DNA of 37,728 nucleotides. Origin: a virus. The notes beneath the pieces were generated by a model. That model was not told the origin of the DNA. It saw only the letters and a program-made list of their open reading frames with translations, and made no database searches. The stretch's first letter is position 1, and every line of letters starts with the position of its first letter. Shown one piece after another: positions 13,927-18,226 of the stretch. The position numbers were made by a program, and so were the translations under genes. The stretch lies in the IMG/VR virus record IMGVR_UViG_3300000268_000001, positions 1-37,728 of that record. The stretch is one strand, 5' to 3'.

Positions 13927-14015
13927 TTGTCCACAGGGTTTTATGGCCACTTGTCCACAATTACTTGTGGATAACTTTGTTTGTAATGCTACGGCACTCA
14001 TAAATCTGTGGATAA
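13927..14015. other. Cluster of four DnaA-box-like sequences
   Basis: TTGTCCACA occurs at 13927-13935 and 13951-13959, and TTATCCACA, the exact E. coli consensus, occurs on the opposite strand at 13966-13974 and 14007-14015. Opposite pairs face each other, and AT-rich DNA lies on the 14015-14060 side. Four boxes in 89 bp is far denser than chance and suggests that host DnaA is recruited here. Confidence 0.65.
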
Positions 14016-14835: not shown

Positions 14836-15174
14836 TTATGCTATCACTTCAATCTCAACCCTGTAAGTCTTAACCCCATTGGATCGCTGCCGATATTGCC
14901 AGTCCAGCAATTGGCTCCCATCATCCACGCCAAGCCAATCAGCAACCCCATCCCTGACCGCCTTAAACCCCGACTGAAGATTATCCCCATCCAAAGCCCT
15001 AGGAGCCACCCTAGTCAACACAATCGTGCAAGGCAATGGTGGAGGTGCGGCAACACTCGCCAGCGCGTTAAACGCCTTCTGGCGCTGACTCTTAACCAGT
15101 TTTGCCTTAACCGCCCAATGCAACCTCATGTTGGCCATGCTGACCACCTTCATGTCCATTTCAACTTCAATCAT
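14836..15174 (-). CDS. RusA-like Holliday junction endonuclease
   Basis: A 112-residue protein starting at the ATG at 15174 (AAGGAA upstream; an upstream in-frame extension would enter the repeat array). Residues 61-86 read LDGDNLQSGFKAVRDGVADW then LGVDDG. D62, D64 and D84/D85 line up with the catalytic aspartates D70, D72 and D91 of RusA, with nearly the same spacing, and the flanking R/K residues fit a DNA binder. RusA dimers cut four-way junctions, useful for resolving recombination intermediates before packaging. It lies between the small terminase and the repeat array. Overall sequence is divergent, so the fold is inferred from these motifs. Confidence 0.7.
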   Translation of the reverse strand: MIEVEMDMKVVSMANMRLHWAVKAKLVKSQRQKAFNALASVAAPPPLPCTIVLTRVAPRALDGDNLQSGFKAVRDGVADWLGVDDGSQLLDWQYRQRSNGVKTYRVEIEVIA

Positions 15175-15207: not shown

Positions 15208-15465
15208 TGCACCGATGTTTTTTTGCGGGGGTCGGTGCACCGAACCGATAGGGTATGTATACCCCTATCGGTGCTTTCGGTGCATCCAACACGGCCCAAA
15301 ACGGCTTTTTTCGGTTCATTTATCGGTGCTTTCGGTGCATCGGTGCATACATCGGTGCAGTTTTTCGGTGCACCGATGCACCGATTTCGGTGCATTTCGG
15401 TTCGGTGCGGTGCATTTATCATGTAACTCCAGGCTACATTTCGGTTCACTTCGGTTCAAAACCGA
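15208..15465. repeat. TCGGTGCA iteron-like array
   Basis: Exact TCGGTGCA lies on the plus strand at 15232, 15277, 15332, 15340, 15352, 15365 and 15387, and on the minus strand at 15208, 15236, 15369 and 15377 (left ends), eleven in about 190 bp. Variants TCGGTGCT (15268, 15323) and TCGGTTCA (15311, 15441, 15451) fill the gaps. Two copies meet head to head as the perfect palindrome TCGGTGCACCGA (15232-15243, 15365-15376). The layout is like the iterons bound by replication initiators. The primase-helicase encoded two genes upstream is a natural partner, which would make this the phage replication origin. Confidence 0.75.
15245..15271. repeat. Inverted repeat inside the array
   Basis: CCGATAGGG and CCCTATCGG (9-bp arms) flank a 9-base centre TATGTATAC. 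The dyad stands apart from the octamers and could be a hairpin or an operator. It would present a single-stranded TATGTATAC loop if extruded, and may mark the functional centre of an origin. Confidence 0.55.
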
Positions 15466-15497
15466 TGTAACAAAGTTACAAGCAACATTGGTTTTGG

Positions 15498-16181
15498 TCA
15501 AAACATGGTTTCCTGTTTTGGGAAATCAGCCGCTGTAGTGCCGTTAAATCCGAACATATCAAACGTCCTTTGCGCATCCTTTATGCGCTTACAGGCAATC
15601 TCAAAGTACTTGGGTTCACGCTCAATGCCTATAAACTTGCGCCCCATCTGGACAGCAGCCACGCCTGTTGTGCCGCTTCCCATAAATGGATCGAGGATGG
15701 TGTTTGGCTTTCCAGCCACATCTATACACCAGCGCATTAGATTTAATGGCTTTTGCGTTGGATGAACTCGCTCGCCAGACTCATCTTTTGCGTTTGAACC
15801 AAGCCAAGGAAGTGTTAGCTTTTTAACAACACTATCTAAATTTGTCCAAGCAAGCTCACAATCGGCAAAGCTGTTTGCACCTGTACATTTGTCCCAAACT
15901 AGCCAACAGCGACTTGGTGGCACATTAAAATAATTGCCGCCCCAATAAATTTGTTTGTCAGCCAAATTAAATATTAAATTCATTAAATCATCTGATGGCG
16001 GCTTTGCATCCCAATCCATTTGACCTCGGTCTAGCTTTCTTTTGCCATTCCCAAGGGTCATTTTATTAGCCCCAATGCCATAAGGTGGATCTGTAATGAC
16101 AGCATCCACCTTGTCCAGCGTAGGCAAAATGTCCATGCAGTCGCCAAGGTACAGGGTGGCGTTCCCAATTTCTACTTTCAT
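15498..16181 (-). CDS. DNA methyltransferase (N6-adenine or N4-cytosine class)
   Basis: A 227-residue amino-methyltransferase. Motif IV DPPY is at 31-34 and motif I DPFMGSGTTG at 164-173, with IV before I, the beta-class order, and HPTQKP (140-145) in between. It uses S-adenosylmethionine to modify DNA; the target is not deducible from sequence. No restriction gene accompanies it, so it probably shields phage DNA from host restriction or regulates expression. Its ATG overlaps the primase stop by 4 bases. The downstream side is the TCGGTGCA array, so it may also methylate around the origin, though no obvious site is present there. Confidence 0.9.
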   Translation of the reverse strand: MKVEIGNATLYLGDCMDILPTLDKVDAVITDPPYGIGANKMTLGNGKRKLDRGQMDWDAKPPSDDLMNLIFNLADKQIYWGGNYFNVPPSRCWLVWDKCTGANSFADCELAWTNLDSVVKKLTLPWLGSNAKDESGERVHPTQKPLNLMRWCIDVAGKPNTILDPFMGSGTTGVAAVQMGRKFIGIEREPKYFEIACKRIKDAQRTFDMFGFNGTTAADFPKQETMF

Positions 16182-18226
16182 GCTGGCGCTCCATTCTCTA
16201 TTGGTGGTGGGGCCGTCCTGAACACCTCATTGCGCTCAATAACCATGTCTTTTTTGACCAATGCGGCAGATGCTTCTTTGAACCGGCGATAGTCTAGGCC
16301 GTGACTTTTGGCAGAATCCCGCCACTCGTCGTATGTGGCAGAGACATCCATACCATCCATTCCCTCGGTGCGTTTGTGCTGCTCAATGGCCACCAAGCAG
16401 TTCAGTGCAATGCGCTGATTGCCGGGTATGGTTTTCTTCTTCTGGATATTACTGACCAGCCCTGAGATGTCCACACTGGTGAGATACGCCCCCTTGACTG
16501 CGTTACCGTGCTTGTCAAAAATGGGCAGGTCCACTTGGGTGATTTGGAAATTCTTAGCCGCTGGCATTTCAGCGTCCTTCATCTTTTTGGACTCAAACTG
16601 GATGGTCTTTGTGCCCGAATCCAACTGGCACTTGTATTCCGCGTCTAGCGCACCCTTGAGTGCTGTGCTGCCCCTGCTTCTGTCCTTGTCCATTGCGCCA
16701 CTGTGGTGTACCACCAAAACGCAGCACTTGTAGTCTTGGCGCAGATAGGTGTCTAGGTGCTGGATAAAGCTGTTCATGTCTTGGGTGCTGTTCTCATCCC
16801 CGCCCATGTTGCGTGCCAAGGTGTCAATCACGATCATGGATGGGATATGGCCACACTCAGCAGACAAGGTTTTGATGGAGTCAGCCACCAGAGCAGCCTC
16901 TGTCGCGTCATACAACTGTGCTGCCCTGTGGCTTTTAAACAATGGCGCTCCATCCAGTGTTGCGCCGTTGCCCAACTCCCAACCCTTAAAGCGCCTGGCC
17001 AAACCATTGTGTCCCTCGCCAGCGATGTAAAAGACTGCCCCTTGCTGGACCTGATGGCCATGCCAGTCTTTGCCGGTGGCCACGCAGCAAGCCAAGTCGA
17101 TGCTAACAAAAGACTTGCCACCACCTGGATCACCAAAGACCTGCGCCAGTGAGTCAGATTCAATGTAGTCATCCACGACCCACTTGATCTCGGTCAGGGT
17201 CAGGCTGTCAGCCCGTGAGAACTCAAACGCCAACTTGTCCCGCACTGGCCCAGCTACGCGCTCAATTTGTTCTTTCACGGCATCCAGTCCTTGCAAACAA
17301 TGCAGGTCGTTCCAATCGGTTGGCTTGTTGTCCACCATGTCAGCATCACCAAATGATGGGTAAACAATCTCACCAAACACCAGAGCAGCCGCAGCACGGC
17401 CCTTGGTCACACCAGGGTTGCCCTCGGTGAACTGGTCATTGTCAGCGCCAATCACAATCTTGGAGCCTGGGAACATCTCTTTTGCGCTCTTGGCTACCTT
17501 GGCTAAGTTGCCACAATCAAACGCCACCATGACTGTGTATCCAGTTGCTTCATAGATTGATGCGCAAGTGGCAAACCCCTCACCCACGAACACGATCTTG
17601 CGATTGCCACGCAGTTCATAAAAGCCACCCTCAATCTTGCCACCCTTCAAGAACCGCTTATTACCTTCTGCGTCAATGGTTTGGTAGGACAGGATTTCAC
17701 CAGACTGGTTAACAACTGGCACAACCAACCGGCCGGCACGATCAATCTTGACCCCATGAGCCTGTATGTGCTTGCGAACCAGATAGGGATGGTCATTGCT
17801 TGCATCAGCATAAGTACCGACTTCATCTTCTGCTCTCTCAGCAGCCACCGCTTGGCTGGCTAATCTTTCTGCATCCTTCTTGGCCTTGAGGTCTGCTACC
17901 CATTTGTCATGTTCAAACCTTTCAGTGAACGACATAGAACGGCCAATGTCAGCCACCCATTTGGCCTCAAATGTAGGCTCTTTCCAGCATCCGGCAATGC
18001 CAACTGGCACTTTGCCACTGGTGTGCAAGATGTACCACCCATCAAGTGAGCCTTTTTTGGATGACACATGAGCCACCCGATGTATCTCGCCATCGGCAAT
18101 CAAGTCTTTGATCAGCAGCCCACTAGCCTCACAGTGAGTCCTAAACGCAGCCTCAGGGTTGATCAGGTCTTGGCTTTCTGTGGCTACCGCAAAGCCATTG
18201 GGGAAGATTGTTGAAAAGGATGTCAT
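16178..18226 (-). CDS. Primase-helicase (Toprim plus RepA-type AAA ATPase)
   Basis: A 682-residue two-domain replication enzyme. The N-terminal part is a primase-like region with a Toprim core: E215 in VFVGEGFAT and the acidic GADND at 260-264. The C-terminal part is a hexameric RepA/RecA-fold helicase with Walker A GDPGGGKS (365-372), Walker B IVIDTLARNMGGDEN (465-479), VVHHSG (505-510) and RGSTALKGALD. Such fusions unwind DNA and lay down primers. No zinc ribbon is visible at the N-terminus. It is coupled by a 4-base overlap to the Cro-like gene, so it is expressed early from the leftward side of the control region. The phage encodes no polymerase, so it must recruit the host one. Confidence 0.88.
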   Translation of the reverse strand: MTSFSTIFPNGFAVATESQDLINPEAAFRTHCEASGLLIKDLIADGEIHRVAHVSSKKGSLDGWYILHTSGKVPVGIAGCWKEPTFEAKWVADIGRSMSFTERFEHDKWVADLKAKKDAERLASQAVAAERAEDEVGTYADASNDHPYLVRKHIQAHGVKIDRAGRLVVPVVNQSGEILSYQTIDAEGNKRFLKGGKIEGGFYELRGNRKIVFVGEGFATCASIYEATGYTVMVAFDCGNLAKVAKSAKEMFPGSKIVIGADNDQFTEGNPGVTKGRAAAALVFGEIVYPSFGDADMVDNKPTDWNDLHCLQGLDAVKEQIERVAGPVRDKLAFEFSRADSLTLTEIKWVVDDYIESDSLAQVFGDPGGGKSFVSIDLACCVATGKDWHGHQVQQGAVFYIAGEGHNGLARRFKGWELGNGATLDGAPLFKSHRAAQLYDATEAALVADSIKTLSAECGHIPSMIVIDTLARNMGGDENSTQDMNSFIQHLDTYLRQDYKCCVLVVHHSGAMDKDRSRGSTALKGALDAEYKCQLDSGTKTIQFESKKMKDAEMPAAKNFQITQVDLPIFDKHGNAVKGAYLTSVDISGLVSNIQKKKTIPGNQRIALNCLVAIEQHKRTEGMDGMDVSATYDEWRDSAKSHGLDYRRFKEASAALVKKDMVIERNEVFRTAPPPIENGAPA

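Follow-up and report, generated by a model that had tools for sequence, protein, structure and literature searches.

A dense octamer array near a primase-helicase gene as a candidate initiator-encoded iteron origin in a P22-like phage and its relatives

Genomic context of the octamer array

The stretch of DNA analysed here, referred to as the window, is a 37,728-nt virus record from IMG/VR (IMGVR_UViG_3300000268_000001, positions 1 to 37,728) that comes from a freshwater phage. Its P22-type portal and coat proteins identify it as a P22-like tailed phage; portal, coat and terminase are all phage-borne, and the phage is not a satellite. The features considered in this work are collected in Table 1. 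A dense octamer array occupies an intergenic region flanked on one side by a small ORF, the longer reading frame of which gave no Pfam or PHROG match, and on the other side by a DNA methyltransferase gene, beyond which lies the gene for a primase-helicase.

Table 1. Coordinates of the genes and sequence features discussed in the text
Feature	Position	Strand	Remarks
Four DnaA-box-like 9-mers	13927..14015		TTGTCCACA at 13927 and 13951; TTATCCACA at 13966 and 14007
Small conserved ORF, far side of array	14836..15174	-	Served as linkage control
Iteron array, both orientations	15208..15458		11 exact TCGGTGCA and 7 one-mismatch copies; proposed primase-helicase winged-helix sites and proposed origin
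Dyad CCGATAGGG-TATGTATA-CCCCTATCGG inside array	15245..15271		Inverted repeat separate from the 12-bp palindromes
Second small dyad, TGTAAC-AAA-GTTACA	15466..15480		Methyltransferase-proximal array edge
DNA methyltransferase (N6_N4_Mtase)	15498..16181	-	Optional insertion between primase gene and array
Primase-helicase, 682 aa	16178..18226	-	Toprim_3 TOPRIM, AAA_25/RSF1010-RepA-type ATPase and C-terminal winged helix; proposed initiator
Codons of C-terminal winged-helix domain (about residues 602-671)	16214..16423	-	From AlphaFold2 model, fold comparison and co-variation; proposed array-reading domain
Codons of residues 645-658, recognition-helix start and helix	16253..16294	-	Residue 645: D in the window (TCGGTGCA), N in relatives that have TTCGGTAC
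Small YdaS/Cro-like regulator, helix-turn-helix	18223..18438	-	Same operon as primase-helicase

The exact octamer was found 11 times in the window, on both strands and always between positions 15208 and 15394, which agrees with the count reported by an earlier reading made from the letters alone (the sequence-only reading). In 100 shuffled versions of the window the octamer appeared 1.64 times on average and never more than 6 times. That the octamer could be equally dense elsewhere, an outcome which that reading had held would speak against it, was not observed, as no exact copy lies outside the array. The one-mismatch copies, of which at least five had been announced, number seven in the array and extend it to position 15458, while 33 are scattered across the other 37.4 kb. 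The two 12-bp palindromes described there were also located (TCGGTGCACCGA, at 15232-15243 and 15365-15376), as was the separate inverted repeat. On the other hand, the GC skew, which that reading had proposed to examine for an inflection at the array, showed no local inflection there, the cumulative skew tracking the coding strand. The region had no match in Rfam, and a promoter and terminator scan of the array region rendered nothing above shuffles. A 26-bp segment with 65% AT at 15415-15440 is a candidate AT-rich spacer, clearer in Alteromonas phage PB15, and GTAAC/GTTAC dyads like the one at the methyltransferase-proximal edge of the array recur near that edge in several relatives.

Arrays in close relatives

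When viral contigs were scanned with the primase-helicase, 80 loci were obtained, 79 of which reach far enough for the presence of an array to be tested. All 79 have a dense array in the gap that follows the 3' end of the primase gene, beyond the methyltransferase or another insert where one is present, but the octamer differs by lineage, with at least six kinds (TCGGTGCA, TTCGGTAC(A), TCCGGACG, ATCCGGAT, TTCGGATG and GTTTCGGT) that have a CGG core in common. The sequence-only reading had proposed to search related phages for an array in the same gap with a different octamer, and this is what was found; the second outcome that it would have counted against itself, relatives with these replication genes and no array, was not seen among the 79. 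A search of all viral contigs with the 16-mer TCGGTGCATCGGTGCA returned 17 records; those with paired sites belong to the family of the window phage, the others being single matches.

The content of the surrounding positions is more changeable. Between the primase gene and the array a minority of relatives (L024, L031, L033-L036, L044, L045 and L048) carry a variable insert, which in the window is the methyltransferase gene, and in several relatives the place of the YdaS-like regulator, immediately upstream of the primase gene, is taken by an unrelated ORF. Phages DSL-LC05 (L296) and ctNMl277 (L297), with portals 78% and 69% identical to that of the window, have another replication gene (primase/polymerase or VirE-like), which indicates that the replication module is exchanged as a block.

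The sites of the relatives are mostly placed in 10-bp steps, about one helical turn, in both orientations and at fixed offsets from the dyad. When aligned on the dyad, their positions agree within a few bases across most octamer kinds, for example at -80, -70, -60, -50, -26, -16 and +15. The copies in the window follow a similar plan, but with extra overlapping sites and more overlap than in the relatives, so the irregular spacing described by the sequence-only reading was not upheld. A nearly fixed layout in which the letters change in concert is the pattern that would be expected of sites following a changing reader.

The palindromy of the internal dyad is also kept in the relatives, by means of compensatory changes, while the sequence itself varies. 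In six pairs, 94% of the cells are complementary and 20 double changes were counted (12 distinct sequences); the 12 sequences were picked by hand as palindromes, which biases the 94% upward and leaves the double changes as the informative part. None of 500 shuffles reached the observed pairing, which dropped to 17-63% in slid versions. The dyad may act as a hairpin in single strands or as a dyad in the duplex.

The primase-helicase and its C-terminal domain

The primase-helicase matches Toprim_3 (E 1.5e-9), with E216, D262 and D264 invariant, and AAA_25 (E 1.3e-36), as well as the structure of RSF1010 RepA (1g8y, E 5e-8); its ATPase is therefore AAA_25/RSF1010-RepA-like and not of the SF3/D5 helicase type. 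Conservation in the alignment amounts to 81-99% per 20-residue block up to about residue 600 and then drops, the C-terminal ~75 residues being the only hypervariable part of the protein. For residues 602-671 AlphaFold2 predicts a winged helix, in which residues 646-658 form the recognition helix and two strands the wing. The model of the domain comprises elements H20-38, H50-59, H64-76, E80-83 and E86-89, with pLDDT about 80-92 in the core, and the same winged-helix elements appear in the full-length model. Fold comparison matched the domain with winged helices including those of MCM and Cdc6/ORC (Z 8-9.5), which shows the fold and not the function; the P4 origin-binding structure is absent among the matches listed. 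At the sequence level the domain alone rendered no meaningful family in Pfam or among PDB sequences, and no match to the P4 origin-binding domain structure.

Co-variation of the C-terminal domain and the octamers

Octamer distances were compared with distances of the C-terminal domain in a set of 48 dereplicated proteins, the effect of the rest of the protein being removed. The two were found to track each other closely (partial Mantel r 0.83, p 0.0005), and the N-terminal/TOPRIM and helicase parts had no positive relation to octamer distance. The 40 most octamer-informative columns include 35 within the 72-residue domain, against 4.2 expected, and the best-tracking of the 682 columns, residue 645, lies where the recognition helix begins; this residue is D with TTCGGTGC, N with TTCGGTAC, A with CGGA words and K with CGGTT. 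R648 does not vary among the 32 aligned domains, nor does the CGG core among the words. Since the sequences are related, these statistics overstate independence, and more reliance can be placed on the controls and on the count of changes on trees. A tree of residues 1-590 requires nine or more changes of octamer class, against five on the tree of the domain, the fewest possible with six classes. Given that among the relatives the words change whenever the tail changes, the array is very probably read by the primase-helicase itself through its C-terminal winged helix, and the co-variation argues strongly for binding of the octamers by this domain.

Other explanations of the correspondence are much less satisfactory. 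The reader could be one of the neighbours of the primase-helicase in its operon, the YdaS/Cro-like regulator, which has a helix-turn-helix, or the methyltransferase. The sequence-only reading had named the primase-helicase and the Cro-like protein as candidate binders, and only the first of these is favoured by the co-variation: the helix-turn-helix of the regulator is almost identical across phages with four different octamers, hardly changing while the octamer does, and the regulator was rejected as the reader for this reason. The methyltransferase was rejected because most relatives have no room for its gene, the gap from the primase stop to the next conserved ORF being of 500 bp or less in 65 relatives with an array. 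Reading by either protein is thus extremely improbable. It could also be the case that the tail and the octamers match only because adjoining stretches of DNA recombine together, with no binding relation, given that the domain codons adjoin the array in most relatives and that the tree of the protein body implies several exchanges. Linkage was rejected with the ORF across the array, which is equally close and is uncorrelated with the octamer (r -0.17), and residues 520-590, just before the domain, are likewise uncorrelated (0.08). Moreover, the coupling persists where an insert parts the domain from the array (in the window and in L033-L036), the best column falls at the recognition helix, and the layout of the sites is kept while their sequences change in concert, so that we regard linkage as highly unlikely.

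Distribution among distant relatives

An array with a dyad directly follows the 3' end of the homologous gene in Alteromonas phage PB15 (GGTTCACA), Idiomarinaceae phage 1N2-2 (CGGTACA), Salicola phage CGphi29 (ATGTCCCC) and Roseobacter phage CRP-406 (GGCTGGAA), and no array was found 3' of the homologous gene in the environmental genome ct76p945. Among the relatives of PB15 and CGphi29, 47 of 58 dereplicated loci have at least four copies of one 7-mer within 280 bp after the gene, a density reached by 1.3% of other 280-bp stretches. Among these relatives the C-terminal domain predicts the words beyond what the body of the protein does (partial r 0.36), the signal of the body being 0.19. Most of the 11 loci without an array share an unusual C-terminus, often with GSRRNLIDGK (L137, L138, L147, L155, L158, L161, L164, L168 and L176), and two whole contigs of this clade (L175 and L165), searched for an array moved elsewhere, had none anywhere. 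The lack of a detectable array in a distant clade with a different C-terminus indicates that the enzyme does not strictly need an array to work.

In bacterial genomes, including those of Ralstonia, Lysobacter, Halomonas, Billgrantia and Pseudomonas, the homologues have arrays of words such as ACCGGAC, located at the 3' end of the gene or within it. ACCGGAC-like arrays in this position were seen in L213, L215, L218, L226, L239, L243, L248 and L265, and in L243 and L248 the array appears inside the coding tail of the protein.

Comparison with known replication systems

The alpha protein of P4 binds the origin repeats by a winged helix (PMC4234260). It resembles the protein of the window in combining a TOPRIM primase, a helicase and a winged helix in one polypeptide and in using short origin repeats, an origin role that is putative in the window; it differs in its P4-type helicase and in serving a satellite, whereas the window has an AAA_25/RSF1010-RepA-like ATPase in a P22-like tailed phage. 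In SaPI and PICI elements the iterons lie immediately 3' of rep, and SaPI Rep reads the origin via its C-terminal domain (PMC7581432; PMC6092414). The same position of the iterons relative to the initiator gene and, presumably, the same use of a C-terminal domain of the helicase as reader are found here, but Rep belongs to another helicase family, in contrast to a TOPRIM primase fused to a RepA-type ATPase; SaPI and PICI are satellites without a full capsid gene set, unlike the window phage with its own portal, coat and terminase. Their two iteron sets flank an AT-rich region, for which the 26-bp spacer is a candidate in the window. In its mode of action the protein of the window would resemble P4 alpha and SaPI Rep, yet it belongs to neither group, because its ATPase is of the RSF1010 RepA kind.

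RSF1010 itself, with RepA, RepB', RepC and oriV, shares with the window a RepA-family ATPase, iterons together with palindromes and the involvement of a primase. It has three separate proteins in place of one fused protein, with a separate RepC binding the iterons where a fused C-terminal domain would be the reader in the window, the iterons of which are octamers that occur in both orientations at distances of about 10 bp. In pRN1 the origin lies directly 3' of the gene for the primase-helicase ORF904, which has a C-terminal winged helix, and its stem-loop keeps the structure while the sequence varies (PMC4234260), as does the dyad described here; ORF904 differs in having an archaeo-eukaryotic primase with an SF3 helicase and in the absence of iterons. 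Classical iteron plasmids have direct repeats with a period of about 20-22 bp, whereas the octamers of the window and its relatives are mostly in 10-bp steps and in both orientations. Such plasmids also have DnaA boxes near the iterons; in the window a DnaA-box-like cluster lies 1.2 kb from the array, in the terminase gap. No description of these phage arrays was found in the open-access literature, and one may exist elsewhere.

Origin function of the array

We consider it likely that the array is the initiator-encoded iteron origin of the phage, its octamers being bound by the C-terminal winged helix of the primase-helicase. The analysis thus lends support to the candidate iteron origin of the sequence-only reading, origin function itself being what we infer from precedent and from the anatomy of the locus. 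The primase-helicase would bind many octamers by its own C-terminal domain, with protomers packing on sites about one helical turn apart, in opposed groups around the TATA-centred dyad. By analogy with P4 alpha and SaPI Rep, the packed protomers would load and activate helicase rings, opening the DNA, and the TOPRIM part would then prime. Against this stands that helicases of the RepA/SF4 type normally load on single strands, whereas the primase-helicase would have to melt duplex DNA. Between lineages, the domain and its sites would be swapped or change together, which would give each lineage its own origin word.

The main competitor of this assignment is the cluster of DnaA-box-like sequences some 1.2 kb away from the array, located where a gap separates the small terminase gene from the gene that follows. 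This cluster may be a second element of the origin, or it may compete with the array as the site of melting or start. Initiation could take place there, with the array, bound by the primase-helicase, as an accessory for helicase loading, copy control or origin handcuffing. Boxes of the form TTRTCCACA are present in the terminase gap of 60 of 60 testable close relatives, with four or five in 28 of the 60 and at least two within 200 bp in 55 of them, against 0.013 per kb elsewhere; the two main boxes are 41 bp apart in many loci, in spite of a drifting spacer sequence, and the cluster is missing around the terminase genes of two phages with a related portal and another replication module. However, PB15, 1N2-2, CGphi29 and CRP-406 have an array and no such cluster in the stretches examined, so that the array is the more widely shared element, and initiation at the cluster appears to us the less likely arrangement, if one to be taken seriously. 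An operator role, in which the primase-helicase or its tail would regulate downstream transcription with no part in initiation, is improbable. The array does lie ahead of a gene in the same orientation, beyond which come the terminase genes, and initiators can double as regulators, but no promoter-like site stands above chance in the array region, some 10-20 sites over 300 bp go far beyond the number that an operator usually has, and in distant phages it is the primase gene that the array accompanies, the following gene being different.

Implications

A broader proposal, which we make tentatively and hold as somewhat short of probable, is that the winged-helix tail and the array form an exchangeable origin-specificity cassette, the word of which has repeatedly been swapped as a unit, in a large unrecognised class of tailed phages with self-contained origins. 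If so, replicon types may prevent relatives or satellites that infect the same cell from exploiting one another's initiator. The reading residue and the base read appear to change together, which makes these phages a natural series of protein-DNA recognition; if residue 645 reads the octamer, a D645N domain would shift its preference towards TCGGTACA. The design of P4 and SaPI, an initiator with the origin at its own 3' end, is here extended to another family of helicases and to complete tailed phages. For most environmental phages no origin is known, and the array offers one that is concrete and testable for a large group that spans contigs from freshwater metagenomes, cultured marine phages and bacterial genomes.
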